DNA of 64,000 nucleotides from Muricea muricata (lineage: Eukaryota > Cnidaria > Anthozoa > Malacalcyonacea > Plexauridae), in NCBI GenBank assembly GCA_963855995.1, contig OY979716.1:56387907-56451906 (forward strand). Direction: 5' to 3'. The translations under genes and the position numbers were made by a program. This document shows positions 43,708 to 62,442 of the stretch, one piece after another. The notes under the pieces were generated by a model. It searched no databases, was not told where the DNA came from, and worked only from the letters and a program-made list of their open reading frames with translations. Each line of letters begins with the position of its first letter. Position 1 is the first letter of the stretch.

Positions 43708-43862
43708 ATCTACAATAGTGAGACGTTGCAACATGTTTTGTCCACCATTGGTGGCCATTTTGAATTTATAATCAGCAGAATTAGCCATCTAATATTTTTG
43801 AATGGACCGATTGCATTATGGGCAAAATTTTGAAAAAAGTTGAAATAGGAAAATTTGTTACC

Positions 43863-44132
43863 ACAGCATTGAAGAGCATCCTAAAATTAGTAAAATTGAA
43901 AAGTTTGGTTGCAAAACATTGTAAAATGTGGAAAATGTAAGTAAGCCTGTGAGGATTGCAAATTTTGTATATTTTTGTATTATTATTGATACCAACATCG
44001 AGAAAACGGTGTCAATTTTCAGTACGTAATGCAAAAGTATTGCAAACTTTGCAGGGCTATCTTTTTCACATTTTATAACATTTTGCGACCAAACTTTGAA
44101 ATTTTACTAATTTTAGGATGCTCTGCAATGCT
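43863..44132. repeat. Inverted repeat, 75-bp arms
   Basis: CAGCATTGAAGAGCATCCTA at left, with the near reverse complement TAGGATGCTCTGCAATGCTG at right. Arms extend through CCAAACTT/AAGTTTGG to CACATTTT. About 115 bp of AT-rich loop. It lies just outside the proposed start of the outer Polinton. Confidence 0.65.
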
Positions 44133-44149
44133 GAGGTTAAAAATTTTCT

Positions 44150-46684
44150 AGTAGTATATGTATGCCACTATAGCTCATTTTCAGGTTACTTCATGTAAGC
44201 CGAAATGAAATGGTTCCAAAAATCCAAGATGCCAAATTTTCCCCAAAATCCAACATGGCGCCAAAAAAAATTCCTTGAAACTGTTTCCAAGGAATTTTCA
44301 AGATGGCGGCCATAAAAAGAAATTGAGAAAAAATTTTTACGATTTTTGGGAAATCGTAAAAACAATGAAGTTTTGGAAAAAGTGTCACCGCCGCATCGTC
44401 GAGAAATTTAACGCCCCATACAATTATGTTTGTGATAGTGTTAAGGTATGCCAGTGTAATGTTCACATTGTGGGGAATGACAATGGTCCTAAAGTTGTCG
44501 TCCAACACAAGAAAAGATTTATGAAGCTTAAATTAAAAGAAATTGTGTTTTAAAAAATCAAAAAATTTTAAAACCGTTCCTAAGGCTTTAAAATAAAATG
44601 CCACCAAAGCGTGAAAATTGGGATCGCGAGGCGGATCGGATCGGGAGTTAAAACGTCGCAACAAGGCTGCGGCTGCAGAAACGAAGAAACGTGAACGTGC
44701 TGAGTACTTAAAATGGGACAAAGAAATAAGAAAAGAAAAAATACGTCGCGACAAGGCTGCAGCTGCAGAAACGAAGAAACGTGAACGCACCAAATTCTTG
44801 AAATGGGACAAAGAAATACAAGTAGAAGAGAAACGACGTGAAATACTTCGTGATTTAAATGAGGAAGAAGGGTGGAACCCTAAAAACAAAAAAAAAATGG
44901 GTCGCCCAAAACCGCCGTCGATTCCGCAGGAAATTTGAACGTAGGAAACCACCTGCGTTTAATGTCGTTAAAGCCTATTCGAATGCTAATGCAAAATTCA
45001 CGACGTATTTTGATACCTATAAAATTTAGGTATACGGTCGCGTTGATCCCGTTGCCGTATTTAAAAAAGCTTTAGATTTGACGTCGAAGACTGTAAATTA
45101 AAACCTGGTCATAAAATACGTATTATCGTATCACACCCTTCGTGGTCACATCTGTTTTCAACGAAACTCATTACGATCACGGACGACGAGCAGTTTTTTT
45201 ATATCCTTTTAAAGGCAGTTTTGGAGTATGTAGAATACAAAGAAGTCCCGTTAAACGAAGTTGTCGTCGAAGTACAGTCGACGAAAATTCCACGAGGTAA
45301 AGGTCGTTTAACAATTACAAAAGATAATAGGGTACAAAAACGGTGCATTATCACGATTAAAAATACCGATATGATATGTTTGTCGCGGGCAATTGTAACA
45401 GTGCGCGCCAATTTGAACAAAGGTAAGTATACAAAATCCCAGGTTAAAAACGGTTTTAATGATCCCCGAGCGTTTCAAAGGACCGAGGCTTTAAAACTTC
45501 ACGAGGATGCAGGTGTCCCCATAACTGGTTACGGGAACACGTTGGAAGACATGAACACGTTTGCAAAACATCTCGGCATTCAAATTAATATCGTCGATGC
45601 TGATTATTTCAATGAAATTACCTACACGGTAAATAACAATGCGAACGAGATTATATATTTACACAAAAACAAAAACCATTATGATGTTATAACCTCGATG
45701 CCTTCATTTTTAGCGAAAAAATATTATTGTCATACTTGCAAAAAAGGTTATACACGTCGCGACAAACACAAATGTCCAGGTAAGTGTTTATCGTGTTTTA
45801 AAACAGAACAACATACGGGTGATAAAATATTTTGTGGTAAGTGTAATTGTACATTTTTTGGACAAAAATGTTACGAAGAACAACTTCGGAATCGTTCGAA
45901 GGGTGGAAAACGTAGTGTCGTCTGCGAACTCGTCCAAAAATGTTTAAAATGTCACTGTACTGTCAGCGATCTAAAGAAACATGTGTGTGGGTACAGTACA
46001 TGTAATAACTGTAAATTATATTGTGATCCAAAAATGCACAGGTGTTACATGCTACCCGTTGAAACCAAAGGCGGTACGTGTACGCGTGAAACACCGTGCG
46101 CCGGTCCTAAAAAAGACTGGTGTTTGTGCTGCAAAACGCGTACTACCAAGTACATGTTTTACGATCTGGAAACACAACAGAATACGGGGATGCATGTTGT
46201 GAATTACGTAAACGCTCAAGATTTTGACGGGAACAAATATACGTTTGAAAATATAGAATGGTTCTGCGAATTTGTATTTGAACACGAAGGGTACACGTTC
46301 ATAGCACACAGTGCAAAAAGTTTTGATGCCCAGTTCATTTTGAAATATTGCATCGATAACGCGATAAAACCGTTTTGTATTTACAACGGGACGAAAATAA
46401 TGTATATGGCTATAAAAGAATTCAATATAAGATTCATTGACAGTATAAATTTTGTCAAGGGAGCATTAGCAACGTTACCAAAAACGTTCGGTTTTTCGGA
46501 ATTAAAGAAAGGGTACTTTCCACATTATTTCAACATGCCGGAAAACCAACAATATATCGGTCCTATACCCACAAAACACTATTACGATCCAGATCATATG
46601 AAACCCAATATTAGGTTGGTGTTTTTAAAATGGTACGATGAACGGGTTGAAGAAAACTACGTCTTTGACTTTAAAAAAGAACTG
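44150..46684 (+). mobile_element. Outer Polinton, left part (continues after 62442)
   Basis: Carries the 5' half of a Polinton DNA polymerase gene interrupted by the inner element at 46685. The proposed left end is AGTAGTATATGTATGCC at 44150, which resembles the inner element's AGTAGTATAG end and sits 450 bp before the polymerase start; the right end lies outside the window. A small basic frame (44275-44553) in this leader has no known family. The interruption is certain; the left end is a suggestion. Confidence 0.7.
44599..46684 (+). pseudogene. polB: Outer Polinton PolB, N-terminal half
   Basis: Start ATG at 44599, shifted after 17 codons into a frame (44618-44938) with two 30-residue charged repeats (AAAAETKKRERAEYLKWDKE and a near copy). 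Broken sequence with an in-frame TAG near 45028 leads to the long frame 45221-46684. There, a domain in the place of the OTU-like part of other Polinton polymerases is followed by zinc-finger-like Cys/His clusters (YYCHTCKKGYTRRDKHKC onward). The 3'-5' exonuclease starts with Exo I FYDLETQQN and Exo II IAHSAKSFDAQFILKYC. The frame ends at the inner Polinton just before Exo III, which lies at 62443. Protein-primed family B polymerases replicate the element. Inactive because of insertion, stops and frameshifts. Confidence 0.85.
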
Positions 46685-46748
46685 AGTAGTATAGTAGGTG
46701 ATTTTCACCTACCTTTCCATCATGTCGCAACACTGCTTGAAACCGGTT
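46685..46748 (+). repeat. Inner Polinton left terminal inverted repeat
   Basis: 23 bp match the right end exactly. After a short mismatched spacer, a 32-bp block (46717-46748, starting CCATCATGTCGCAACACTGC) also matches the right arm. This block is 32 bp from the terminus here but 273 bp from it on the right. Confidence 0.9.
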
Positions 46749-46889
46749 TTCTGAAGGTTATAAATATCGCGCGATATCTTTGCCATTAGTGTGACTTGGA
46801 CTCTGTGGTGCTTTATTCTTTACACCGTTGGCCAACTTGGAAATCTGTCGGGAAACCGTTTTGTACATTACCTAATTTCAAGTGGGAAA

Positions 46890-49800
46890 ATGGCTCAAGG
46901 GAATCAAGAGAATATCTGGTAAGTTTGTTTTTTTTTCCTTTTTCATTCAAGTATCATTCTCTGCCGTAACATATTTTTTTCAGAGTATTTTAGCAATGTT
47001 TCAATTGTTTATCAGGTTATTTAAAACTTGTATCTACTAAAAGCATGCTGCCCTATCAAACTTGTACCTAAATATTTCACAAGTGTAATTTGTCACGCGA
47101 GCTTTCAATTATAAAGTCACTTACCCAGTTGCCCTTTACAATAACCCTATATCGAAGGGGCATAGTTATGTGCAGGTTGACTAAAAAGCTGTACTGGAGG
47201 AAGCATAGTTGTTCGATGTAACGAAACGAGTATGTTAAATTCTCATCTGCTTGAAGGTTTTAAGATATGTAAATCAACAAAACTGCCAAAATCACTGAGG
47301 CGTTTGTAAATAAATTTTAAGACTGACCAAACTAATGCTTATAGAGTAATAACATTGTATTTTGGTACATATTACTGAGGCGTACGTGAATAAATTTTGA
47401 GACTGACCGAAATAATGTTTATAATATAGAGTAATAACATTGTATTTTGGTACATGTTACATTTCTTCATTAATTTAATGATGCAATTTTTCATCGATAT
47501 TCGTGTAAAGCTTTGACAATTAGTGACATTAAGTTGCATGGGTTGGATATGATATTGACTTTAACTAGCCATCTCGGTATTTGTTTATGTTATCTTTATT
47601 GTGAATCATTTTTTTAAAGTTTACTGGTGGAAAATTTTTCATGCGTAGTTAATTTCGATCGTTTGAGACTTCTAAGATGGTAAATTTCTTTACGATTATG
47701 TCTATTTGTAGTCTGCTTCTATTATATATCTCTGAGTTATGAACAGTTGCTTGCCTGTATTTAACTGAAGGCAATATAACTTATTGATTCAAGCTTATTG
47801 ATTGTGTTGCCCATACACTATATTCTTGTGATTTGATTATTTTACAAAGTTATATTGTATTGACATATGATATTTGAACCTAAAGTTTAGTTCTCTTGTG
47901 TAATGAGGATTCTAAACTGTTTGAAGGTATCAAAGTTTTAAAATATGTGACCTTGCAAAACTAATGGAATCGATCACTGAAGCGTGCGTGAATGAACTTA
48001 GAGACTGACCAAATCCAAATGTTTTATAAAGTATCAACACAAGTTTTTGCTACAGGTCCCTTGTCATCGTTAGTTTAGTGATACTATTTAATTGTAGGAA
48101 ATTTTTCATTGAATATTTTTAAACAATACTTTGATAATTATTGATAAACACTATTAAGTTGTGTGGGTGAAGTATAATATTGCATGCCTTCCATTACCAC
48201 GGTATTTGTTTGTTCATGTTGTCTTTATTATGAATCATGATTAAAAGTTTAGCTGGTGGAAAATTTTTTACGCGTAGTTAAATTTCTATAGTTTGGGACC
48301 TTTAAGATAGTAAATGTCTATAATTATGTGTGTTCATAGTCTGATGCCATATTATATGTCCCCGAATTATTGCTTGCGTATATATAACTGAAGGTAATAT
48401 TACTTATTGATTTTGTTGCCCGTGCACTGTATTCTCCGAATCATTGACTGTTCTATAAAATTATTGTGTATTGATATAGTATTTGAATCTAAAGTTTAGT
48501 TCTCGCTGTCTGTAGTTTTTACTGAATTTTTGTTATGCTTATTTTGTTTTATTAAGGAGAAATGAATTAAATGCTAAATTGAATGCGGAAGATGCCCAGC
48601 ACAAATATTACGAGGAACAAGTCAATGCTATAATTGCTGATTGGCCAGTGGAAGATCGCCAAAGATTTTTAAGGGATTGGAATGACGACAGTTTAGTAGA
48701 TGTTTTGAACGAAACGGGCTCAACTCCTATTAAGGATCATTCATGCAACGAGTGCGACAAAAAATTTTCTACTCCTTCGAATCTGAAACGTCATATTCGT
48801 CGCGTGGACAGCCTAGACATACCACACACTTGTGACACATGTCAAAGGTTTTGCAATGGTTGATATGTTGAAGCGGCATAGCCAGGTACATCAGAAGGAA
48901 AAGATTCATGATTGTTCGCAGTGTGGAAAAAGATTTGCCAGAAAGGACAGTCTGACCCGCCATCTCAAAACACATGCAAAGAGAAGAGAAGAACGTTCTT
49001 TCACCTGCAACCTGTGCGATGAGACCTTCCACAATATCTTTCCTTTTCAGGCACATCAACGAGATGTGCACCAAATTGGTTCTGGTGAAAAAAGAAAAGA
49101 ATCTTCAACGACGAACCCGCGAACAAAACGGGCTCGAGGCAACAACTCTTCTACTATAGAGCCTGGAGTAAACGAGGGAGCTTCCACATCGTCAATCTCT
49201 ACTGTACCTTTACAAGCTAAAAGTGCTTCTTCGTTTACTTCAGACCCTATTTTACCACCGCCCGATCTTCCCTCCTCAATCCACCAGGATCACTGGCGAG
49301 CAATCCGAACCCGTCAAAGCCGTGGCAATAAAATTCAACCGATGTCACCAATCTAGGACAATATTTAAAGTCTATTTTTGAAGATCAGACGACTGCATTT
49401 AAACTTAATTTATCCTTTGGTTTTATTTTACGGAACAACGAGACAGAACAGTTCCAATATCATCATTCTTTTATCAACAATAATCGTGTTTTTGACAGTC
49501 CATTTTTAATTCGAAATGCGCAAGATCTGGAGCAAGTTCGCACAGCCATCTCGAATTTGGATGTGTTGGAGTGGGCCCGCCAGCAACGTCCAAATTCGAA
49601 ATGGATTGCTGCCGAGATTACAAATGCAACTTTTTATGAGACCAAACTAGGTGGACATCCTATCAGTAAGAGTTCCAAACTTCCTTCCTATCTTTTGAAC
49701 AATCCTACTCTGATGTCCTTGGACTGCAATGAACATACCGGCCTGCCCTACAAGGACAATTCATGCTTTTTCCGTTGTCTGGCAGTTCATCGTGGTTGTC

Positions 49801-52800
49801 ACCCTCACAATTTAGAAAGGGATACTCAGCATTTTTATGAGCGGTATGCTGAAGTATCAAATCATGAATTTGAGGGTGTTAGTCTCGATGAGCTTCTAGA
49901 GTTAGAAAAGCTTTTTGAACTTGACATATTCGTTTACGAGTTGGTCAAGATCTATGATGACGAAACGGAAGAAAGATCAGTCGTTGTACAACTTGTGCAA
50001 CGTTCTCATCACTGATACGCCAACACGATGTACTTAAACTTATATGGTAATCATTTCAGTTATATTAAAGATATCTCATATTCAAAATCCTACTGCTGCT
50101 CCAAGTGCGATAAACTGTGGAAATCCGCCTACGCCTTAAATTGCCACGAACGTACATGCGAAGCTACTGTTAGACATATCTTTCCTGGAGGTGCGTACCA
50201 GGTTCCTCAAACAATATTTCACCTTTTAGGAGACGAAGGTATTAACATTCCCGAGGATTTAAAGTTCTATCCCTATCGTGCAACGTTTGACTTTGAGTGT
50301 TACTTTGAACGTCATTCTAAACATCCTAGAAACAGTAAAAAACTAACCTGGGAAGCTGAGCATATTCCTCTAAGTGTTTCTGTGTGTTCTAACGTTCCTG
50401 GCTATGGTCACCCTCGTTGTTTTGTTACAACTGGTGACACACCTGATCTCATAAAACGGTTTTTGGAGTATTTAGTGCAAATTAGTGAAGCAAGTTATTC
50501 ACTGTCATTGAAACAATTTTCTACTGTTTGATCAAGTTGATCGTTGCGTTGACAGTGATGAGAGTGATTCACAACCTGAAGAAACTGACGGTGTTTCAAA
50601 AAAGCGTCATCCTTTGGAAAAATTAAAAGAAAAATTAGACGAGTATCTTCACGAGCTTCCTGTACTTGGTTTTAATTCGGGCTCATACGATATTAATGTT
50701 GTTAAGAAGCATTTATTCCCTTATTTGGTGAATCACGAAGAAGTGAAATTTGTTATCAAGCGAAACAATAACCATTTGTGCCTGAAAACGGAACATTTGA
50801 AATTTCTGGACATTACCAATTACTTAGCTCCTGTATTTAGTTACGATGCGTTTATCAAAGCATACGAATGTGCTCAAACAAAAGGTTACTTCCCGTACAA
50901 ATGGGTCAACTCTATTGACAATTTAAATTATAATCAACTACCTCCTGAAGCTTTTTACTCGTCGCTCTCAGATTCTGAAATTACGAAGGAACAGTATCAG
51001 TTTTGCCAGCGTGTGTGGGATGAACATGGTATGACTTCTTTTTATGACTTCCTAGTTTGGTACAATAACCTTGATGTTGTACCATTCTTGGAAGCTATAG
51101 ATAAAATGAGTGCTTTTTGGAGAGAGAGAAATATTGACATTTTTAAAGACGGTGTCAGCGTGCCGGGGCTCACTATGAAATATTTATTTTCCAATGTGGA
51201 CTGCTACTTTACTCTGTTCAACGAAAAAGATAAAGATCTACACTATACTATGAAGGACAATAATGTTGGTGGACCTAGCATCATATTCAACCGCTATCAT
51301 GAAAAAGACAAAACGAAGATTCGTCGTGTCGAGATGGAATAGAAAGGAAAAGTTCCGAAAGACTGCAAGAAAGTGGTTGGGTACGATGCTAATGCTTTGT
51401 ATATTTGGGCCATCATGCAGCCAATGCCGACCGGCAATTATTCAAGATGGTTGGCTGATGATGGTTTTAAGATACAAAGTAGTGCTCGTATGGCAATCGA
51501 TTGGCTGGAATGGCAGGCCCATCAATGTGGTGTTCATATTCGTCACCAGTACAACAGCACAGAAAAACGAACTGGTTCTAGACGTCTCCCTGTTGATGGA
51601 TTTTGTTCAGAAATGCATACGGTGTTCCAGTTCCATGGTAAGTAGATGATGGTATCTTTTAAACATATGAGTGTGTCCCTCTAAAGGTGCCCAACATGAA
51701 AGAAATTATATGAAAAAAGATGATCTTTACATATTTGTTTCACTTTCTGTTTTTTTTTAGGCTGCTGGTGGCACAGTCATAATTGTCACCTAAATAAGGG
51801 CAAAGTTATCAATACTGTTCGTGACAAACCTATGACTGAACTTCTGGAAGAGACGAGAAGAAATAGCAATTACATCACATCACAAGGTTACAATTTGATT
51901 GAATATTGGGAATGAGAGTGGATAGAGATGCAGAAGAAGAATAATGACCTCCAGGAGTTTATTTCCACCACCCTACGACGACCATTAGACCAAGTAAAGA
52001 CAATGACTGAAGAGACCGTGCTAGCATCAGTTGTGGATGGAACACTGTTTGGTTGTGTTGAGTGCGACATCAGAGTTCCAGACCATCTTAAGGAATTATT
52101 TGGGAAGATGTGTCCAATTTTCAAGAACGTAGAAATATCTCGTGACGATATTGGAGAGTACATGAAGAGCTACGCAGAAGAGAACAAAATCATGAGTCAA
52201 CCGTGGCGCAGTCTTATTGGAAGCTATTTTGGGGAGAAAATCCTTCTGGCGACACCTCTCCTGAAATGGTACCTTGAGCACGGTCTGGAAGTTACCCATG
52301 TGTATCAAATGATTGAGTACACCCCTAATGCTTGTTTCCATCCATTCGGCGAAGCTGTCTCTGATGCACGCCGTGCTGGTGATATTGACCCAAACAAATC
52401 CATTATTGCCGATACTATGAAACTTGTTGGTAACTCGTCTTATGGTAAAACAATCACGAATAAAGAACGCCATCCTCAGGTAAAGTTTTGTACCGACGAC
52501 GAAGTTTCACAATTAATTAATTCTCCTTTCTTTCGCCAAATGGATGCCATTGACAAGGACAAATACGAAGTTCAAAGTAGCAAGAAGAATATTAAATTAG
52601 ATTTACCACTACAGGTTGGGTTTTTTGTCTATCAGTATGCCAAGTTACACATGCTGCAATTTTATTACGATTTCTTAGATAAATATTTATATAGAGTTGA
52701 TTTTGAGCTTTGTGAAATGGATACAGATAGTGCATATATAGCAATAAGTAATGAAAATTTGGAAAGTTTGGTAAAACCTGAAATGTTACAGAAATACACA

Positions 52801-53159
52801 ATTGATAAATGTAATTGGTTTCCGCGGACAGATACAATAAAAGAACACCAGGCCTATTTAAAGTAGAATGAGAGGGGGATGGTATCATTGGACTTTGCAG
52901 TAAGACTTATTATTGTTTTGGGGATAAGAAAGATAAATTTAGCTGTAAAGGACTTAGCAAAAAGAATAACGTAATTAACAAAGAAAAGTATTTAGATGTC
53001 ATTTTAAATAAACGCAGTGGAAGGGGTGTAAATAAGGGGTTTAGAATTTTGGACAATCAAATGTGTACATATGTCCAGGAGAAGGATGCACTGAGCTATT
53101 TTTATCCAAAGCGTAAAGTCTTGGAGGATGGTGTGACAACTATACCTTTAGATATTTAA
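46890..53159 (+). pseudogene. polB: Inner Polinton PolB, three exons, broken
   Basis: Inferred exons 46890-46918, 48557-51637 and 51761-53159; donors GTAAGT, acceptors AAG and TTTTTTTTAG, phases match. The N-part has C2H2 fingers (HSCNECDKKFSTPSNLKRH, DCSQCGKRFARKDSLTRH), a nuclear-type basic stretch, and an OTU-like part with DNSCFFRCL and GNHFSYI. Exonuclease motifs: ATFDFECYF, LGFNSGSYDINVVK, YNNLDVVPF. Polymerase motifs: A in GYDANALYIWA, the FHGCWW zinc-like segment formed across intron 2, B in KLVGNSSYGKT, C in MDTDSAYIA. Protein-primed replicase of the element. Lesions: frameshifts near 48850, 49345, 50518 and 52866; stops at 50013 (TGA), 51340 (TAG) and 51913 (TGA). Confidence 0.85.
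47255..48510 (+). repeat. Tandem duplication inside PolB intron 1
   Basis: Two diverged copies of a roughly 600-bp unit (about 47255-47918 and 47919-48510) share a long ordered set of blocks: TTTGAAGGT, ACTGAGGCGT / ACTGAAGCGT, GTATTTGTTTATGTT, CTGGTGGAAAATTTTT, AACTGAAGG, and ATTTGAACCTAAAGTTTAG. Within copy 1 an 83-bp piece is repeated again (about 47297-47461). It fills most of the intron; no coding frame. Confidence 0.65.
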
Positions 53160-53188
53160 ACTTGTATATAGTTATGTTACATTCTATA

Positions 53189-53332
53189 TTAGAATTGAAG
53201 CTGAACATTGAATACTAAACTTTAATTTTTTGCTCGAAGCTAAATGTAATCAAAGAAATCTTTGGAGCGCAAATCTTCACAATTGAATGAGTCCTTAATT
53301 CTTCAGTGACAATATTCAGCTTCAACTCTAAT
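53189..53332. repeat. Fold-back repeat between PolB and ATPase genes
   Basis: Left arm TTAGAATTGAAGCTGAACATTG, right arm its near reverse complement (CAATATTCAGCTTCAACTCTAA). About 100 bp of AT-rich loop; probably a small MITE. Confidence 0.6.
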
Positions 53333-53456
53333 TGTATATTATTCATTAACAATAAAATGTGTTTCAAATTTGTTGGATTGCGTGCGTAATTGGTTACAAA
53401 TACCCATGGGGATCACACATATTTCTCATTATGTGCATGCGTAGCTGGGGCGAACA

Positions 53457-54104
53457 ATGGATGTGAGGTTCAAAACGCCTGCAAATTTTTACGTTTGTGG
53501 TCAGTCTCAAAGCGGAAAAACAAGTTTAGTACGTTCTATGCTGAAAAATTTAGAAGAACTGTTCCACCCCATTCCCACCCAAGTGATTTACTGCTTTGTG
53601 GTCAACCTCAAAAGGAGTTTAATGAATTGATCAAAATTGTTCCAAACATCAAACTAGTTGAAGGTTTTCCTGATGATTTGTATGATATATATTGTAAATG
53701 GACATACTAACTCACTCGTAATTTTGGATGATTTGATGTGTCAATGCTCTAATGACCAATGTGTGTCTGATTTGTTCACCCGCGGCTCCCATCATCGAGG
53801 TCTAACAGTTATGTATCTTACTCAAAACCTTTTTTCCCCTGGAAAGCATTCACGCACTATTAGTTTGAATTCCCATTATATGATTGTTTTCAAAAATCCA
53901 CTAGATTCACTGGGAATTTCCACTTTGGCCCGTCAAATGTACCCGCACAATACAAGTTTCCTTTTACAATCTTTCCAAGATGCCACAAAGAAACCATATG
54001 GTTACCTGCTGTTAGATCTGCATCAACTTACACTTGAGAATATGCGATTAAGAACAAACATTTTACCTGGCGAGAAGCAAATTGTTTATGTTAAACGTAC
54101 TTAG
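53457..54104 (+). pseudogene. Inner Polinton packaging ATPase (FtsK/A32-like)
   Basis: ATG at 53457. Walker A is in FYVCGQSQSGKTSLVRSM, followed by TQVIYCF. The reading then moves to another frame between about 53600 and 53698 (QPQKEFNELIKIVPNIKLVE) and back, so two frameshifts compensate. Walker B lies in SLVILDDLMCQC, and the sensor-like segment GSHHRGLTVMYLTQNLF is the strongest Polinton ATPase signature. The end is near LPGEKQIVYVKRT. About 216 residues in total, normal for the family. It is thought to pump DNA into the capsid, as A32-type ATPases do in related large DNA viruses. Confidence 0.85.
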
Positions 54105-54139
54105 ACAACGGTTTCAGCTCAAGACGTTTTAATTGCAAC

Positions 54140-54862
54140 ATGTCTAAACACATGAAAGACAACCTTCCTTATCTACAAGTTTTAGGCCTGGTTTATACGG
54201 CGTGCTATGAGCGCACCGAACTAATTAGGTAAATAATGAGCACGCTCATAGCACGCCATATAAATCAAACTGGTTCGCTCCCTGAATTAGGCTCGCTCCT
54301 GACCGTGCAGCTTGCTCGTCAATGGCGTTCTGAACGCTAATAGCACGGCTAAGCACGTTTCTGATTTAAAGCTAGCGCTAGCAGCGAACCAAATTACACG
54401 CTAATTGCCTATAATTTATTATAATTTAAAACATATTTATACTAGCTCAACTAACAAATTTGGCTCCCTGACCGTCGTTACGTATAAATAAAAAATACAT
54501 GCAACAAGCGTGCTAGACCGTGCTACATAAATAATTAGTTCGGTGCGCTCATAGCACACTGTATAAACCAGGCCTTAGTTAAATCTAAACCAAAACTACG
54601 TAAATTACTAATTGAACATGGTCCAGTGCCTATGATCACATCTATTTGTGAATGTGCCTTAAATCTGCTGAAAGGTTTTATTCCACTTACACCGCGTCAA
54701 AAGCGTCGCTTAGCACGGTACAAGACACATCTTCGCAGATTGGCTAGTAAAAAAGTATCTCGAAAGAGAAAGAAACAGTTTCTTAACCAGAAAGGTGGTA
54801 ATCTCCTTACTGCTTTGTTGCCGCCTGTTCTAACCGTGCTTGGAAGTTTACTAACAAAATGA
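54140..54862 (+). pseudogene. Small basic core/pX-like protein, split by a MITE
   Basis: ATG at 54140 opens 15 codons, then a MITE with its TTA duplication (393 bp) interrupts. The frame resumes after 54577 and runs to the TGA at 54860. The C-terminal part has a Cys/Leu-rich helix (CALNLLKGFIPLTPRQKRRL), a very basic region (KKVSRKRKKQF) and a hydrophobic Gly-rich tail (LLTALLPPVLTVLGSLL). This layout (helix, basic patch, hydrophobic end) is common in Polinton and adintovirus genomes and has been compared with adenovirus core protein X. DNA condensation in the virion is inferred. The next gene's ATG overlaps its stop (ATGA). Confidence 0.75.
54185..54574. mobile_element. Harbinger-type MITE, 390 bp, TTA duplication
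   Basis: Inverted ends of about 42 bp: GGCCTGGTTTATACGGCGTG at left, and at right the reverse complement of GGCCTGGTTTATACAGTGTG. Flanked by TTA on both sides (54182-54184 and 54575-54577). It contains two further inverted GTGCTATGAGCG/GCTCATAGCAC blocks. Target and end sequences fit PIF/Harbinger. Confidence 0.88.
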
Positions 54863-55585
54863 AGCAAATGATTTTGGTACCAGAAGATATTTATGCAAGA
54901 TTTGAGCCAAAGCAAAACCTCGAGACTTCGCCAATCATGAAAAACATGATAAATACGGACACGGACATGACAGATATTCTTCAACGCACGGATGTTGATG
55001 ATACAGAAAAGCAAAAACTGTATTATGCCAATCTGGAAAAATACCTTAATCTCAGACAGCAGAAAGACAGTCAAACACCAACCGTTCAGATAGCACCTAG
55101 TACCACAAATAGAGAAGAACTTTCCCCCCCCAAACAATGCACAATTATCTGATGCAGTCGTTGTCGAGCATATACCCAAAACCATGCATCCCAGAGCTGC
55201 AGCTATTTTAAACCATTTGAAAGAAAGACCGGACGTTATCACATGGGACAAAACTGGAGAAGTGAAGCTAGAAGGTGAAAGCATTCCACAATCAAACATT
55301 TCGGATTTAATTTCAGATGCTCTAAGGGAAAGAAAAAATTTTAATCCTACAGGGTCAAAGGAATTTTTTCGCGTTTTATCCAAGATAAATATGCCTAAAG
55401 ATTTGGTCAGGAATGAAAAACGATGGAAAGAGACCCAGATGAACAGTAGTTTTTCTGAAGAAGGGAGTCTCTTAGGCAGTCCACGGGCTTCGCCCTCGTC
55501 GAAGTATTTTCAAACCCTTCTAAAGAGACATGATGAAAAAGCAAGCAAGCCAAAACAAACTCAGGAACGTTGGCTTAAATATTAA
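54859..55585 (+). pseudogene. Conserved Polinton hypothetical protein
   Basis: Starts MKQMILVPEDIYARFEPKQ, then DTDMTDILQRTDVDDTEKQK and a Gln-rich segment. A frameshift in a C-run (about 55126-55133) moves the reading into 55150-55585: MHPRAAAILNHLKERPDVI, SIPQSNISDLISDALRERK, EFFRVLSKINMPKDLVRN, ending in a Ser/Lys-rich tail. About 240 residues. I recognise it as a protein repeatedly found next to the pX-like gene in Polintons. No enzymatic motif; a virion or assembly role is only inferred from position. Its start overlaps the previous stop by 4 nt. Confidence 0.75.
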
Positions 55586-55670
55586 TCTTGTAATTGTTTA
55601 CTCAATAAATTGTTTTAAAAATATGTTCTTAGTGTTGTCTCATGCATGGGATTAGGGCAAATGAAAACAC

Positions 55671-55682
55671 ACACACACACTT
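55671..55682. repeat. Short CA microsatellite
   Basis: Six CA units in the gap between the converging plus- and minus-strand gene blocks of the inner Polinton. Confidence 0.6.
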
Positions 55683-55686
55683 CATT

Positions 55687-56215
55687 TTAACTACAATATT
55701 TATTGAACAACTTTTTACTAAACTGAATAAAATTTAAGTTAGGATGCTTTACACTAACTCTAAAGTGAGATTTGACAAAATGGGACACTTTTGCATCATT
55801 TAACATAGTATTATCATCAAACAACTGTACGATTTTGTTCATGCTATATCCACGTGCTCTATGGCTTAGAAAGAATATACAATATTGGCCGCATACGTCC
55901 GACCAATCGCTTTGCAATTTGCGGTCGTTGAAGTCCCACTCGCCACACTGTTTCTCTAAAAAGTCCGTGAAGGCGCCCCCGTAAAAATTCTGCAGGCTTG
56001 CCGTAGGAATCGAACCACGAACCCTTGCAAGGAGATGAGAGGTAGATTGAAACCCAGTGAAATCCAGGCTTCGTGCTCGGATCGGTGTTGGCGACAAATC
56101 CGCAAGGATACTTGTCAATCGTTTGAGGTAGTTTGTCACTAGGAAATACTCCACAAAACTTCTTGTTTGTTATAGGATCTTCCTCTAGTGCATGAGTGAT
56201 TTGTGCGGTGTTCAT
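55687..56215 (-). pseudogene. Adenovirus-type cysteine protease, one frameshift
   Basis: ATG at 56215 directly follows the capsid stop. First frame: the catalytic His in KPGFHWVSIYL and the acidic residue in GSWFDSYGKP. A frameshift near 55975-55985, inside TTTTTACGGGG, moves to the 56154-55687 frame with FLEKQCGEWDFNDRKLQSDW and the catalytic Cys in SDVCGQYCIFFLSHRARG, ending VKSHFRV and a Lys-rich tail. The His, Asp, Gln, Cys order fits the C5/Ulp1-like fold. In Polintons and adenoviruses it matures capsid proteins. All catalytic residues survive; only the frame is broken. Confidence 0.85.
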
Positions 56216-57529
56216 TTAGCCAGAGTAATCGTAAATAACGTTTCTCTCAGAATCGATATGAATGGTGTTTTCGAATTCACGGTAACACACGAGGCTCACA
56301 GCATCTGTTGGTGCAGTGGAGAACTTGATGTCGACTGCCAGATTTCCTCGTTGAACCACATTAAAATGGGGGGGGGACGATCTACACATATCAGGTGTAA
56401 GGTCGGCAACATACACTGCATAGCCACCAGCATATTCATCACCAGTGACGTCATTTCCCGCACCGGAAAACATGGTAAGGAATGCTTCGATATATCTAGG
56501 ATTTGCTGCCGTGTAGGAAAGCTGTAAGTGTGTGAAGGGTACTTCTTCTCCGTTGACGGCGATTCCGAGGAACAATGTGGTAAAAGTCTTAAAATTAAAC
56601 GGATTCTTCTTGTAATCACCATTAAGTGCTGCACTGTTGGCCATTACCATGGCAAATGTTTTCGGTACCAGACCGTTAAAGACATTATCTTTCCTCAAGG
56701 AAGGATTTCCAGCTGAAATTATAAACGTTTTGCATTCCACACGTCTAATGGGATAGATAGCCGGCCCTTTTTTCAGTGCTAATTCTTGAGCTATGGAGAT
56801 GCTTGGACTAACTTTAACTTTGCGTATCTTGAGATAAGCTTCGATCAGTTTCACTCTGTAATCGGCCTCGGAAGCCATCAAACAAAACTCGTTCACGTTT
56901 CGATTCAAAATGACTTTCAGATCGACATAACTCAATAGGAGACGTTCGCTTCTAAACACATCACAGAATATAGGACCAACCATTTCAATAGTTCCGCTTG
57001 CTTTACTAAACTGATATCTTGTTCTGAGACCTTGGTTAGTGTTCGCGTTGTCAGCAGCCAACGTAGGATCGGCTGTGTCCATCTTCCCTGCAGTATCTTT
57101 GTAAAAAAGAGCTGGAGCGAGTTGAGATTTTTTTGCAGCTGGACCATAATTGAGAAGGGTTTCTAGATAGGCACGGTATGAGTAAGTCCCGGTGGCCTGT
57201 GTCACTTGCTTTTCTTTTAAAAAAACGTCGACTTGTTTGAACAAACTGTGCAAGAAATTGTTCACGACTCCAACCTTTTTGTCAGCATCGAGATTTGCCC
57301 CGTCAGCTTTTGTTACTTTAGCTCGAACTACCAGAATTGTTTTTGACAGATCTACGTAATCCTCAGTGCCTGGAGACAGGAATGTGATCGGACCCCCGTC
57401 TGAAACACTGGAAACAGGTTGGTGGTCTATCCAGTGGCCCTTTTCCAAACTCACTTGTGTTGGAGGGACAGAAAATAAATCAAGCTCACTCTTGGTGCAT
57501 TCTTGCGATTTGGAATGTACGAAATTCAT
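56216..57529 (-). CDS. Major capsid protein (double jelly-roll), intact ORF
   Basis: 437 codons without interruption, from MNFVHSKSQECTKSELDLFS to YREFENTIHIDSERNVIYDYSG. The N-part QVSLEKGHWIDHQPVSSVSD and the blocks KTILVVRAKVTKADG, VVNNFLHSLFKQVDVFLK, YSYRAYLETLLNYG and IIKE-like beta strands match Polinton hexon-type capsid proteins. The C-terminal jelly roll includes KTFTTLFLGIAVNGEEVPF and YAVYVADLTPD. Usual family length, so it is complete. It would form the trimeric hexon of an icosahedral virion. ATG lies 2 nt after the pVI-like stop, and its own TAA touches the protease ATG. Confidence 0.9.
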   Translation of the reverse strand: MNFVHSKSQECTKSELDLFSVPPTQVSLEKGHWIDHQPVSSVSDGGPITFLSPGTEDYVDLSKTILVVRAKVTKADGANLDADKKVGVVNNFLHSLFKQVDVFLKEKQVTQATGTYSYRAYLETLLNYGPAAKKSQLAPALFYKDTAGKMDTADPTLAADNANTNQGLRTRYQFSKASGTIEMVGPIFCDVFRSERLLLSYVDLKVILNRNVNEFCLMASEADYRVKLIEAYLKIRKVKVSPSISIAQELALKKGPAIYPIRRVECKTFIISAGNPSLRKDNVFNGLVPKTFAMVMANSAALNGDYKKNPFNFKTFTTLFLGIAVNGEEVPFTHLQLSYTAANPRYIEAFLTMFSGAGNDVTGDEYAGGYAVYVADLTPDMCRSSPPHFNVVQRGNLAVDIKFSTAPTDAVSLVCYREFENTIHIDSERNVIYDYSG

Positions 57530-57531
57530 GT

Positions 57532-57987
57532 TTAACCAAATATGTCTTTGCTAACAAAAGTTGTTCTCCGCTTCTTGGTCTGCTTGCTTCTGGCAGTAGA
57601 CGATGTGAATGCTTTTCTCTTTTTAGCTGTTTTTTTTTGCTGCCTGTTTCGAACCACGTTTTCCACTTCCTGTTTGATTCATCAGCTTATTGACAGCTTT
57701 CCTTTTTGTAACATTTGCAGCCTCCAGGTACGTGCTTTTGCTGCTTCTTTAACATTTTTACCGGCTAAAACATCCCCCACAAAGTTCGCACCACTCTTCA
57801 AAGCAATATTTCCAAGAGCTTTTGCTCCACTTTTAACCATAGGCATGACGGCTCTAGCAACGCTACGAAACAGACCGCCCAGTCCATAGCCCATTTGACC
57901 ATGACCAATTTGCCATGGACTACCTCTGAGCACAGTCATACCGCGACCTTGCTGACCAAGATAATAACGTACGTATGGATTACTCAT
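57532..57987 (-). pseudogene. pVI-like minor virion protein, C-terminus frame-shifted
   Basis: ATG at 57987 begins MSNPYVRYYLGQQGRGMTVL, then RGSPWQIGHGQMGYGLGGLF and an Ala/Gly-rich amphipathic helix (VMPMVKSGAKALGNIALKSG). A frameshift near 57725 and another in the A-run at about 57637 carry the reading to a very basic tail (QTGSGKRGSKQAAKKN, KKRKAF) ending at TAA 57532-57534. In adenovirus, protein VI lyses membranes and links hexon to core; the Polinton version is placed there by layout and position. Two nucleotides separate it from both neighbours. Confidence 0.75.
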
Positions 57988-57989
57988 CT

Positions 57990-58739
57990 CTATGCGAAAT
58001 AACTGTGCTTTCTGAAATGTAGTGTTATCACCACCTTCCCACGTTCAAATGGCACGGGATCGCCTGTGTCGTTCCTTAAAAGAACTTCCACGGCCTCAAA
58101 GGATTTCGTTCGAATCGGCATGTACTGAATGTTGGTAAACGTTTTAGCAATAATGTCACCAAACTTTCCCTCGGCAGGAATACTTTTGAGTAACTGAGCG
58201 CTCGTGTCTCCGACGATGTGGGGTTGCACAATGTCGCAGTATACGTAGATGGTTGATACGGTTGTCAAGTCTGCCACGTAAGGGCTTTCTGTCGTTTTTT
58301 TTAACATAACGTCTTTTCCTCCAAAACCAAGTATGATCGGTAACGGTTTCATCACAGCAAACTGAAACCCGTTCTTTATTTGAACGGTCACTTTTCCTGT
58401 GAAAGCATTGTACGTCAACTTGATGTTATCGCTAACGTTTCTGGGTAACGCTTTATTCGCAGCTTTGATAAGCTTCTGCATGGACTGGTAGTAACCGTAA
58501 TCCATAATGGCTTGCTGAAACAAACCGGTTCGATCCGCGTAAAAGAGGTGCGTATCCACACGTTTTTGTAATGTGTACCAGGTGTTTGGATAGGAAATGG
58601 AGTACAAACTGACTTCCCAGACCCCCTCCAAATCAATACTTTGCGGCAATTTCACGCAATAATTTGTCGTCTTATTATTGGGAAACTCATTCAAGGATGC
58701 ATTACTAGGTAATGTGAGATAAAAATGTGTTTCACTCAT
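57990..58739 (-). CDS. Penton / minor capsid protein (single jelly-roll)
   Basis: I choose the ATG at 58739 (MSETHFYLTLPSNASLNEF), since the 13 codons upstream are hydrophobic and unlike the family. 249 codons follow without a stop. Blocks KTTNYCVKLPQSIDLEGVW, EVSLYSISYPNTWYTLQ, PLPIILGFGG, YVYCDIVQPHIVGDTSAQLL and VEVLLRNDTGDPVPFERGKV are the usual ones of Polinton minor capsid proteins; the last contains the GxPVPF-type strand near the end. It would occupy the fivefold vertices. TAG at 57990-57992 is followed after AG by the pVI-like ATG. Confidence 0.87.
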   Translation of the reverse strand: MSETHFYLTLPSNASLNEFPNNKTTNYCVKLPQSIDLEGVWEVSLYSISYPNTWYTLQKRVDTHLFYADRTGLFQQAIMDYGYYQSMQKLIKAANKALPRNVSDNIKLTYNAFTGKVTVQIKNGFQFAVMKPLPIILGFGGKDVMLKKTTESPYVADLTTVSTIYVYCDIVQPHIVGDTSAQLLKSIPAEGKFGDIIAKTFTNIQYMPIRTKSFEAVEVLLRNDTGDPVPFERGKVVITLHFRKHSYFA

Positions 58740-58787
58740 GACGACTATAATGCAACAAATAAAACGAAAACAGCCCAAACGTTGTTT

Positions 58788-59858
58788 TTAGAGTTTATTT
58801 ATTTCTGATGCAGACACCCATGAATTGAATTTGTCTGGGTAACTAGACCATTTTACAAGATATTGTGCATTTTTTCCCTTTCCCCGCTTTTTAAGGATTT
58901 TTTCAACTTCATACATGTCATCATTTTTGATAACCTTTTGAAGCTCCTTGTCATAAAATGTTCCTTTAAGCTCTTCGCCATCATAATCTCTGAGTTTATA
59001 TACTGCTGGATCTTGAGGTACTTTTTTGCTTATAGTGAATATTTCTTTTGAATAGTTCGGTAAGTATCTGTTTTCAAACTTTCGTTTAATTTTACTTATT
59101 CTAACCTTATCGCCGATCTTGAACTTATATTTTACAGGTTGTACATTATCTAAGACATTATGATATAAAGCATGAAACACCTTGTCTTCATTTTCCGAAT
59201 TGACAAGGGCGGGTGGTCTTCCTATGCTGCGGTGTTCACTGTGGTTATAAGAATAGACCAAGTCAGGCAGCATATCAAGGTATCTCAACGTTTTCTTTGC
59301 AGTAAAATAGCGCCACATCTTTGTCTTGAAGGTGCGAATTACTCTCGACAATGGAAGCCTTTGTTTCGTTAAACGTATTAAACAGCTCAATGCCTTCATT
59401 TTTTAACAGTGTTTGAAATGATTAGTTAAAAAACTCTTCCTTGATCCGTCATAATTTTGTGCGGCTTTCTACCAGAAGATAAAATCACTTTGAACGCTTC
59501 AACTAAGACAGGTCCAGTTTTTGACTTTATTGGAACTAACCATGCATACTTTGAAAATACATCAATACAGACAAGCAAGTATCGATAACCGTCATTGTAC
59601 TGTTTCAAAGACTGCATGTCTGCTAAATCCATTTGCCATTGTTCGTCTATACCACCCACAATAACACGATTTCTTTTAAAGTTTCGACGTGTAGGTATCT
59701 TGACCCATTAACCAGTCTGAAATTTTTTTTCGATTTAGTTTAAACGTTCCCTCTTGTTTCACATCACGATATAAGTTCTCAACTCCTCCAAAACTCCCAG
59801 GACACCTTGGATTATAATAAACACTTTTCAAATACTCATCAACTGTTGCTTGGGCCAT
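58788..59858 (-). pseudogene. Retrovirus-like integrase with chromodomain, broken
   Basis: Start MAQATVDEYLKSVYYNPRCP, then GVENLYRDVKQEG and WLMGQD. A frameshift at about 59690 leads into WQMDLADMQSLKQYNDGYRY (first Asp) and HKIMTDQGRVF (second Asp). The third residue is in NETKASIVE, but the frame changes immediately after this Glu (about 59340), giving KTKMWRYFTAKKTLRYLDML and YNHSEHRSIGRPPA. The C-terminus has an SH3-like segment (FKIGDKVRISKIKRKF) and a chromodomain (YEVEKILKKRGKG, YLVKWSSYPDKFNSWV). It inserts the element and creates the 6-bp duplication; the chromodomain may guide it to chromatin. All three acidic residues are readable. Confidence 0.87.
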
Positions 59859-59908
59859 GTCTTCTTTTTAAATGAAACAAAGAAAGCGTGTATCGGTGTT
59901 ATAAAATT

Positions 59909-60220
59909 TAGTTTTCTGATGCCTCTGTTAACTGATCGTCGGGTTCGGTTACTGCTGAAGTTGTAGTTTCTGGTGGATTTAACTGTTTGTCAATGACCAT
60001 GGTTTTTAATTGTCTTATTGTTGTATCCCATTTGCGAGTGACCTTCCAAATTTAAATCGTTACGGCCAAAACTTATACCAACTTTAAACATTTTCTGTCT
60101 GTTATGATTTTTGTCTCTTTTGATTTTATCACTCTTGCTATGACAAGTGCCCATGTTACCTCTTACAAGCAGACTGAATGAAATGAAGAAAAACAACAAA
60201 ACACTACTTTTTAAAATCAT
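59909..60220 (-). pseudogene. Small accessory protein, possible N-myristoylation signal
   Basis: 76 codons from 60220 begin with a hydrophobic stretch (LKSSVLLFFFISFSLLVRG). An internal ATG at 60154 gives MGTCHSKSDKIKRDK, which resembles a myristoylation plus palmitoylation start (MGxC with Ser and a basic patch). After KTIKN the frame is shifted into MVIDKQLNPPETTTSAVTEP, ending in an acidic tail at 59909. Either two short genes or one with a frameshift. Function unknown; membrane association is inferred only from the N-terminus. Confidence 0.4.
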
Positions 60221-60236
60221 TTATTTCTTTGGTACA

Positions 60237-60701
60237 TTACACTGTATAGTTATATTTTAATTTACACACACATAGAACATAGTCAATTAGATTGTTAATA
60301 AATGAAGTTCTTTCGGATTCAGAATATATCTGGAACCAAACGAAACATGACATATCAAACAGTGCTTCAAAGTAATCTCTGTAGATTGCTGATGGTTCTG
60401 GATACTTTAAAATCTTGCACGCCTCCATGACTGCTCGCCACATAACATCATGGTTCAAGAGTTCAAGAGCCCGTTCGGCATAACTAATCCACCGCTCTTC
60501 GTTGTCAAGCACCTTAAAGCATTCTCTGAACCTTGTCCATTGATTACCATCAGTTTGATCATGCTTGGCCAATGTTTCTTCTTCCAATTGTTGAATCTTA
60601 CTATAGACCATCTCCGTGAACACAAGATCGATGAGTTTTTCAACAGTCAAGGCATCAAAGTCAATTTCATCTACATACATTTGTTTAAACAGGTGTGCCA
60701 T
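60237..60701 (-). CDS. Accessory protein of unknown function, 154 aa
   Basis: An uninterrupted frame starting MAHLFKQMYVDEIDFDALTV. It is acidic and mostly helical (EKLIDLVFTEMVYSKIQQLE, then ERALELLNHDVMWRAVMEAC), with Trp and Phe in the last third (SCFVWFQIYSESERTSFINN). No motif I can name. The all-helical pattern with a conserved-looking central Trp would be worth a structural search, for instance against Bcl-2-like folds, which some related viruses carry, but nothing in the sequence establishes this. Probably its own transcription unit, as 200 bp separate it from the next gene. Confidence 0.55.
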   Translation of the reverse strand: MAHLFKQMYVDEIDFDALTVEKLIDLVFTEMVYSKIQQLEEETLAKHDQTDGNQWTRFRECFKVLDNEERWISYAERALELLNHDVMWRAVMEACKILKYPEPSAIYRDYFEALFDMSCFVWFQIYSESERTSFINNLIDYVLCVCKLKYNYTV

Positions 60702-60921
60702 AATTTTCTTTGGGTTTGTTAGACGAACTGTTCACAAGCACACTCACTAAATAGACTAATGTAACCATTGAGTTCTCGAATGTTTTAAGTAAAGTATAAG
60801 CTGGACAAACCTGTTTCAAATGTATGAGCATGAATAAACCTGTTTTTATATAATACGTCATATTAAATTAGCAACAAAGATATACATTGCAATGAAAAGC
60901 TTTATTCAAGAAAATATAATA

Positions 60922-61359
60922 TTACAATTGTTCAAGAGTCTCTTTTTTAAGCAACCGTCTCTCGTTTGCACAGAACACTGATCGCCAATCATAACAAGTA
61001 TACTTCAGTAACTCTAGTCCATTCACCCTTGGTTTGATATCACTTAAACTGTTCATAAAGTTCTCCATAACTCTTGCTTTAGATATTTTTGATAACGCAT
61101 CATCAAAGTGCATTGACAATCTTTCATCACTTTCCATCATAAGACAAGGATGCTGTCTTTGTGATGGATGATCAATGATACAGCCGTTGCAATTTTCGAC
61201 TACCAGTTGGTTAATGACTGAGGCAATTTCTTCTGCATAGCACTTTATCAGTCTCTCTTCAATTATTTTCTGACGGTGGCTTAAAAACCTTTCTTCATTA
61301 CCAATGTCAATAGGTAGAGTCAGGTTTGATAAACTTTTACGCGTAGACATTTTAAACAC
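60922..61359 (-). CDS. Conserved Polinton accessory protein with C-x2-C / DHPSQ motif
   Basis: 145 codons, open. The start is MFKMSTRKSL or the internal MSTRKSL. The centre has VVENCNGCIIDHPSQRQHPC, a Cys/His cluster followed by LMM, which I recognise as recurring in small Polinton-linked proteins from many invertebrates. Cys-Cys-His-His-Cys spacing suggests metal binding. The C-terminal half is helical and ends YTCYDWRSVFCANERRLLKK. Role unknown; its place with other minus-strand single genes suggests early or regulatory function (inference). Confidence 0.65.
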   Translation of the reverse strand: MFKMSTRKSLSNLTLPIDIGNEERFLSHRQKIIEERLIKCYAEEIASVINQLVVENCNGCIIDHPSQRQHPCLMMESDERLSMHFDDALSKISKARVMENFMNSLSDIKPRVNGLELLKYTCYDWRSVFCANERRLLKKETLEQL

Positions 61360-61447
61360 GACTTTTCAGTTCAACAGCTAAAGCAATACTGGCGTGGTTT
61401 GTACCAAATGTTTCTTAATAGTCTAGACATAATTAACATAACATGTT

Positions 61448-62047
61448 TTACAAGTTCTCTTCCTTTGTTTTAAGGGACAAGTATTCTTGGTGGGCTTCGC
61501 TGCGATTCTCATGACGGCTTGTAAAATTTTCGCCAGTCTCCTTAACCATATACCCGTACGAAGGAGGGTTGCTAAAATACACAGAGGAAAATGGTGCGAA
61601 CGGGTCTTCGTCTTCTTTTTTATCTCTCCACTCAAAATAGCCGCACGAGTCGTCTTTATCTTTCGAACAGGTATAAAATAAACGACCGTAGTTAGCGCCA
61701 TCTTTCTTGACCTTTCTCATTGAACATTGCACGCCATGGTAGCACTGTGGTCTAATAACATCACCCCATTGCCAAAACAAGCAGGGTTTTTCTTTATCCG
61801 AGCAAACGAAGAATGGTCGGCCAAAACTAGGTTTAAAAATGTCTTTCACAACTAGCATTTTAGTTAGCTTCTTGTGCTCGTGACATTTTGGCTGAGGAGT
61901 GTTTGAATTTCTCCACATAGCAATATCATTATGAAAGTAACTACAGTCATTCTGTGGACAGAAGAAATTACAACTAGGCTTCTGCCCGCAGTAAAAAATA
62001 CACCAATTGTAGGTTTGGAAGATGATGCAGGCTCTCCATGTAAGCAT
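61448..62047 (-). CDS. GRF-type zinc-finger protein
   Basis: 199 codons, open, first minus-strand gene after the right end. Three related Cys-rich units: KPSCNFFCPQNDCSYFHND, FGRPFFVCSDKEKPCLFWQW and GRLFYTCSKDKDDSCGYFEW. The latter two fit the GRF zinc finger (G-R-x-F-x-x-C ... C-x-F-x-W) known from APE2, TOP3A and NEIL3, where it binds single-stranded DNA. A plain C-rich link (CYHGVQCSMRKVKKDG) joins them. An accessory role in replication or repair of the element is inferred. The tail is acidic then charged (SRHENRSEAHQEY). Confidence 0.75.
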   Translation of the reverse strand: MLTWRACIIFQTYNWCIFYCGQKPSCNFFCPQNDCSYFHNDIAMWRNSNTPQPKCHEHKKLTKMLVVKDIFKPSFGRPFFVCSDKEKPCLFWQWGDVIRPQCYHGVQCSMRKVKKDGANYGRLFYTCSKDKDDSCGYFEWRDKKEDEDPFAPFSSVYFSNPPSYGYMVKETGENFTSRHENRSEAHQEYLSLKTKEENL

Positions 62048-62131
62048 TCCATTTTGAAGACGAAGAATGAGAAGCTCTACAAACCTTAAAGACTTTTATA
62101 ATCCCTAAGAAAACCTGTTTCAACTAGTTTC

Positions 62132-62436
62132 AACCGGTTTCAAGCAGTGTTGCGACATGATGGTGCAATCGTGAGGAAATTCGGTTGCACATGATCGAAA
62201 CATTCCAGAACCTTCTAGAACAAATTTACATAACAACAAAATACTCTATAAACCAATCGTAAATTAGTAAATACTCCTCGTTTTAAATATTCATATTGCA
62301 TGAATAATTATTACTTGACTACATGAATAATAATCAATTGATCTGCCACAGAAATACATGAATAATAATTAGATCTGCCACGATCCGCCACGATCCGCCA
62401 CAGAAAAGGGGGTTGAAAATCACCTACTATACTACT
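62132..62436 (-). repeat. Inner Polinton right terminal inverted repeat region
   Basis: The last 23 bp and the 32-bp block 62132-62163 match the left end in reverse complement. Between them lie 241 bp absent from the left arm, with ATGAATAATAATTA repeats and three CACGATCCGC units (62377-62403). Farther inside, GAAACTAGTTGAAACAGG-type repeats (about 62112-62131) add to the arm. Confidence 0.85.
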
Positions 62437-62442
62437 GAACTG

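Follow-up and report, generated by a model that had tools for sequence, protein, structure and literature searches.

A Polinton with an rve integrase and (AGT)2 ends appears to have entered, as a linear unit, the PolB gene of an older Polinton belonging to another lineage, duplicating the hexamer GAACTG at the target site; we put the probability of this reading at about 97%. The window, by which we mean the whole stretch of 64,000 nucleotides that was analyzed, is C1:56387907-56451906 of the 453-Mb, 74-contig genome of Muricea muricata, and one assembly was analyzed. The insert spans positions 46685 to 62436, which is the length of 15,752 bp given in the original prediction. Because the insert interrupts the outer PolB, the outer Polinton invaded first, and the proposed order of the two invasions follows directly from the nesting. 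The outer element and the junctions comprise the following features.

44150-46684, plus strand: left part of the outer Polinton with N-terminal PolB (ORF 45065-46684), beginning AGTAGTATATG; from genome alignment and PolB relatives
46679-46684, no strand: target site duplication, left copy, GAACTG
46685-46748, no strand: left end of the insert, a 32-bp terminal block and an adjoining second 32-bp inverted block, with about 241 bp fewer between the blocks than at the right end
62132-62436, no strand: right end of the insert, the longer form of the terminal region
62437-62442, no strand: target site duplication, right copy, GAACTG
62443-64000, plus strand: outer PolB resumed, from the presumed Exo III motif (YCRSDV) onward, with later frame changes and a stop at 63286-63288

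The outer PolB is one gene in two pieces

The outer PolB frame at 45065-46684 ends in KEL at the left junction and resumes in frame, as QSYCRSDV, at 62443, where we take YCRSDV to be the Exo III motif. On that assignment, the frames fit the prediction that PolB is broken just before Exo III at 46684 and continues at 62443. Formally, the left ORF runs on for 34 codons into the insert, to a stop that ends at 46789. A protein search with the left piece gave 369 relatives among 3959 candidates, several of them with DNA_pol_B_2 (PF03175). Both pieces were matched by 58 relatives among the 120 listed (one of which, P0121, is the window's own left piece), and the gap between the two matched pieces was 0 residues in 57 of the 58, the one outlier being at -704. 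Since nearly all two-piece relatives bridge the pieces with 0 residues, both pieces belong to one protein.

Alignment of the outer flanks with other copies of the outer family, a check suggested along with the original prediction, revealed uninterrupted sites. For the left flank, 40 of 82 candidate places in the genome were scored (the window's own included), and for the right flank, 40 of 68. The right flank lay 0 to 19 bp from the left flank on the same strand at 25 of the 40 scored left-flank places and 322 to 326 bp away at 2; 12 had no partner among the 40 scored right-flank places. In the window, the two flanks are 15,758 bp apart (15,752 plus 6). Junctions were read in the plus-strand members of 28 paralogous loci. 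In two of these (L022 and L034), the site is uninterrupted and reads exactly GAACTGCAATCG, with one copy of the hexamer; the remaining readable paralogues have variants of it. These empty sites are pre-insertion paralogues rather than the pre-insertion allele of this locus.

The right boundary was also located with a 500-base query across the junction, in which the last outside base is query base 100. Matches at 14 outer-family places ended at base 100 (8 places), 101 (1 place), 88 (4 places), or 111 (1 place). Of the 26 other non-self rows, 22 began no earlier than base 101 (3 of them exactly there), and the other 4 began at bases 91 to 99.

Ends and target duplication of the insert

The hexamer GAACTG was found at both junctions, as had been claimed, and an inverted-repeat comparison recovered the claimed termini, in which the outermost 23 bases are exact inverted copies that begin AGTAGTATAGTAGG. 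These termini read AGTAGT...ACTACT and fit the (AGT)2//(ACT)2 form of Polinton/Maverick ends. A second exact inverted block of 32 bp lies at 46717-46748 and 62132-62163. The terminal inverted repeats align over the two 32-bp blocks and a short further stretch, with the left end about 241 bp short. The left end more probably lost this sequence than the right end gained it, because the ends of two other elements continue like the right end and a relative at C1:34710277 spans the region ungapped. Target duplication, inverted ends, in-frame flanks, and uninterrupted paralogues thus agree on the central claim of the prediction, one Polinton nested in the PolB of another.

The 14 bases AGTAGTATAGTAGG were then used as an end motif. 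With up to 2 mismatches allowed, the window contains two matches, both exact (shuffle mean, 0.23; 3 of 100 shuffles reach 2). Genome-wide, the exact motif occurs at 66 places, and reversed controls gave 0 and 2. Neighboring motifs less than 50 kb apart form 20 convergent pairs, 0 divergent pairs, and 0 same-strand pairs, with 26 places left unpaired. The convergent pairs span 2.1 to 38.4 kb, and 9 of the 20, the window's included, fall within 13.9 to 15.8 kb. A flanking 6-bp duplication is exact in 15 of the 20 pairs (again including the window's), has one mismatch in 4, and has four mismatches in 1; when ends were paired wrongly as a control, hexamers agreed in 2 of 380 pairings. Two sets of two pairs are not independent insertions, since their flanking bases are common.

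Several of these pairs merit separate mention. The pairs at C2:44939093 and C2:49837362 (in opposite orientation) and those at C1:78181539 and C1:78596169 have the same flanking bases and are likely segmental duplications that carry the element. The flanks of C2:54784167-54791268 are inverted copies of each other, not a direct duplication. Two long pairs, C1:52903271-52941713 (38.4 kb) and C1:53612092-53634635 (22.5 kb), have perfect 6-bp duplications and may hold other insertions. The 38.4-kb pair was considered as a second Polinton within a Polinton, and none was seen with 13 query proteins in 20 of its 38 kb; the examined 20 kb has integrase and minor-capsid matches near one side, followed by other sequence.

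An assembly that had wrongly joined two Polinton copies would also give one element inside another. Assemblers can confuse Polinton copies, of which this genome has many, and the evidence here is the assembled sequence itself. Such a join, however, would not yield a perfect 6-bp duplication, 23-bp inverted ends, and in-frame flanks, much less place the duplication and the ends exactly where paralogues have a single hexamer; the same duplication rule holds at 14 of 19 other same-end pairs. In addition, the left 600 bp of the insert had no reported genome match besides the 32-bp block at its own right end, although the lack of a match is not proof of rarity. A misjoin is therefore very unlikely, and we reject it on the target duplication, the frames, and the paralogues. 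A further alternative to integration, ectopic recombination of two Polintons, would have a starting point in the AGTAGT that begins both elements, but it leaves no target duplication of 6 bp, little sequence is shared by the inner and outer pieces that were compared, and the flanks are one interrupted ORF. We consider it less probable still than a misjoin.

Polintons are expected to integrate from a linear copy by means of an rve integrase, with a staggered cut and a duplication made during repair. Under the integration reading, an rve integrase of the element's own type would have cut the outer PolB at a staggered 6-bp site (we infer both the enzyme and the timing), a replicated linear copy with (AGT)2 ends would have been inserted, and host repair would then have filled the staggered cut to leave the 6-bp duplication. 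The insertion would have separated the part of the outer PolB with what we take to be Exo I and Exo II from the presumed Exo III and the polymerase domain, and this event, more than earlier decay, may have ended PolB expression from this outer copy. The ends, the duplication, the frames, the empty paralogous sites, and the distinct lineages (see below) are the observed parts of this explanation. Both elements now carry broken replication genes.

Gene content and decay of the insert

Between its ends, the insert contains the following features; "the cousin" is a related copy at C1:8309001-8319000 (L112), which is collinear with the insert over 7.5 kb.

48516-49356, plus strand: C2H2 zinc-finger ORFs (Pfam zf-C2H2)
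49332-53159, plus strand: PolB region, broken, with in-frame stops at 50013-50015, 51340-51342, and 51643-51645 and frame changes near 50.5 and 52.87 kb
53390-54104, plus strand: putative packaging ATPase in two overlapping frames; no Pfam match
54184-54574, no strand: 391-bp stretch with 44-bp inverted ends (arms 54184-54227 and 54532-54575)
55687-56215, minus strand: putative adenain-like protease in two frames; no Pfam match; part strongly divergent from the cousin
56216-57529, minus strand: major capsid protein, 437 amino acids, open frame
57990-58778, minus strand: putative minor capsid protein, open frame; no Pfam match; 92% DNA identity to the cousin
58788-59707, minus strand: rve integrase with C-terminal chromodomain (Pfam), frameshifted between two frames
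61448-62095, minus strand: GRF zinc-finger ORF (Pfam Zn_ribbon_GRF; E value, 7.5e-19)

Three of these assignments are presumptive: we take 53390-54104 to be an A32-like packaging ATPase from its motifs and position, 55687-56215 to be an adenain-like protease from a motif, and 57990-58778 to be the minor capsid protein from its position and the usual Polinton gene order. The integrase was matched by rve (E value, 1.4e-8) and Chromo (E value, 1.7e-11). Its two pieces were both matched by 91 relatives among the 120 listed, and in 80 of these the pieces are separated by 27 residues; the window has 77 nucleotides there, which is why the frame is lost. The PolB of the insert may be broken by its stops and frame changes, introns being an alternative. 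DNA_pol_B_2 matched 1 of the 5 PolB pieces tested (50512-51339; E value, 1.1e-4), at 21.6 bits, which is below the curated cut-off of 25.8. Another piece has DNA relatives (71 to 74% identity) inside other same-end pairs of the genome.

The insert had been described as a complete Polinton with the full gene set. Its architecture bears out this description, and the gene complement appears to be present, in part as putative assignments; the genes are not all intact, given the broken PolB frames, the frameshifted integrase, and a left terminal repeat that is about 241 bp short. Because the insert is not coding-intact, "complete" applies to its architecture only.

The left noncoding part of the insert contains repeat families at 47291-48504, spaced by about 600 to 630 bp, that represent a diverged internal duplication. 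An Rfam search of the whole window gave 0 matches at the gathering score. The unmatched left 600 bp and a best capsid identity of 80% had suggested that the insert is the sole member of its lineage in this genome; this possibility was dropped, as its integrase DNA is 91 to 93% identical in 32 of 39 other scored copies (93% in 26 of them).

The outer Polinton and its relationship to the insert

The left end of the outer element is the AGTAGT at 44150, from which (44148 to 44150 onward) six other places in the genome align; the search scored 40 of 1361 candidates. A weaker match (78%), at C1:107922180, extends across the boundary. The 99 bases before 44150 belong to another, high-copy repeat. 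Adjoining the outer left end, 43849-44148 is an inverted-repeat element whose right end is part of a high-copy repeat (many places at about 90% identity), with TAG on both sides.

Beyond the window, the outer Polinton extends for about 12.6 kb, with an rve integrase, a Pox_A32-type ATPase, and an ORF pair that we presume from its position to be capsid-like, as it had no Pfam match above the cut-off. Pfam matches within the outer element reach E values of 5.8e-13 for DNA_pol_B_2, 2.5e-8 for rve, and 5.6e-5 for Pox_A32. PolB, an rve integrase, and an A32-like ATPase in one element of 15 to 20 kb is the pattern that the outer Polinton fits. Without the insert, it measures about 16.7 kb from its left end to a 69-bp inverted terminal-repeat match, and a sibling copy that has inverted ends is 17.08 kb long. 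No right terminus of the outer element was recognized beyond the 69-bp match, and complete inverted ends with a target duplication were not found for it. An ORF in its right part (L066 1849-2352, minus strand) matches PF10927 (DUF2738; E value, 5.8e-9).

Over 94 aligned columns, the integrases of the two elements are 29% identical. BLAST gave no significant similarity for the one pair of inner and outer PolB pieces compared (78 and 276 amino acids), nor for the one pair of capsid pieces. By these sequence comparisons, the insert and the outer element are of different Polinton lineages.

Comparison with known elements

In a survey of Polinton/Maverick elements, vertebrate Mavericks have (AGT)2//(ACT)2 ends and perfect 6-bp duplications, and intact ones are 12.7 to 24.6 kb long with terminal repeats of 46 to 1447 bp (PMC8097293). 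The same survey describes Polintons as mostly degraded, with PolB broken by stops and frameshifts, and reports distinct groups within one genome, for example, that of Nematostella (PMC8097293). The elements analyzed here are alike in their ends, 6-bp duplications, size range, decay, broken PolB, and co-resident groups; they differ from those of the survey in the nesting of one element within the PolB of another, in the shortened left terminal repeat, and in the nearest relatives, which are not the same for integrase and capsid (PMC8097293). Retrotransposons nested in polinton-like viruses and virophages of protists are similar in that a virus-like element is interrupted by a mobile one, in some cases within a coding gene, but there the intruder is a retrotransposon, while here it is a Polinton of a different lineage (PMC12220804; see also PMC8547959).

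A literature search of titles and the beginnings of abstracts turned up no description of one Polinton nested in another, which does not show that none is in print. Nested mobile elements are ordinary, and so is an event of this kind; the capsid mosaicism described below, although drawn from few copies, is the better lead. The nest dates the two elements cleanly relative to each other, the outer one being the earlier, and defines the sequence before insertion that population tests could look for. Within this genome, it serves as a confirmed Polinton example of the end motif, the 6-bp duplication, and the boundary.

The capsid protein of the insert

The major capsid protein has 2646 relatives among 8000 scored candidates, and the organism names among the 120 relatives listed are those of octocorals only (Dendronephthya, Xenia, and Paramuricea). 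A PDB sequence search gave 0 matches. The predicted model has low confidence (pLDDT, 55.7). With this model, Foldseek against the PDB returned the mavirus major capsid protein at the top, followed by iridovirus and PBCV-1 capsid proteins (E values from 1.6e-11 downward). As the TM-scores are just 0.2 to 0.3, the result backs the fold class and not its details; at that level, the model supports a double-jelly-roll major capsid protein. The top BFVD match was R9XLG5 of Cotesia sesamiae Mombasa bracovirus (31% identity). Bracoviruses contain Maverick-derived sequence, and they are comparable in having a Polinton capsid homologue inside another virus-derived element, with which the R9XLG5 match is consistent. 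No free viral relatives were confirmed in IMG/VR, where the queries were the capsid protein, an alignment of 28 capsid sequences, and the outer PolB piece.

Apparent mosaic relationships of the capsid gene

Three copies were compared closely with the insert in one long comparison and two short ones, the long one being with the cousin, for which identity was scored in 100-base bins. Across the integrase/minor-capsid part (58.2 to 59.9 kb), the bins are 91 to 98% identical, and overall identity in these two genes is 92 to 93%. Across the capsid gene (56.3 to 57.7 kb), the bins are 66 to 88% identical. Synonymous divergence differs accordingly, with dS values of 0.17 and 0.29 in the two parts of the integrase, 0.25 in the minor capsid gene, and 1.64 in the capsid gene, where dN is 0.11. 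The excess of synonymous differences in the capsid gene over the integrase and minor capsid genes gave a Fisher P value of 2e-33 (counts rounded to whole numbers). The nearest relatives also change with the gene. The cousin (C1:8.31 Mb) is 93% identical in the integrase and 76% identical in the capsid gene, and the closest capsid genes, those of copies on C4 and C11 (80%; dN, 0.08; dS, 0.97 and 1.06), go with integrases that are 72 to 73% identical. The integrase/minor-capsid segment of the insert is close to a multi-copy local family, and the capsid gene is not.

Faster evolution of the capsid gene, with no recombination, was weighed as an explanation. Capsid genes can face diversifying pressure, amino acid identity to the cousin does drop in the capsid protein (80.5%, versus 89 to 91% in the integrase and minor capsid protein), and the comparison rests on three other copies. 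The excess is synonymous, however, and dN is low, so that selection on the protein does not explain the divergence, nor would faster evolution make the nearest relatives switch from C1:8.31 Mb for the integrase to C4 and C11 for the capsid. We regard this explanation as improbable. The simplest account would be exchange between lineages, in which the insert, an ancestor of the insert, or the cousin is a recombinant of two Polinton lineages. More tentatively, and at somewhat less than even odds, Polintons in this genome may act like co-infecting viruses: the capsid-protease block would come from another lineage, cassettes would be recombined between co-replicating elements, and nesting would be a by-product of crowding. 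If the capsid mosaic is general, animal Polintons would exchange capsid genes and keep integration genes, which bears on whether they are by nature transposons or viruses.

Other dips against the cousin, to 66 to 79% identity per bin, lie at 53.7 to 53.9, 55.1, 55.9 to 56.1, 57.7, 59.9, and 60.3 to 60.6 kb. These dips, together with dS values in the protease piece (1.24) and the GRF gene (0.63) that also depart from that of the integrase, suggest that more than one tract may have been exchanged.

The 391-bp stretch at 54184-54574 is absent from the cousin. No longer target duplication was seen around it, and the two matching parts of the cousin overlap by 2 bases at this point; the stretch is possibly a third level of nesting.
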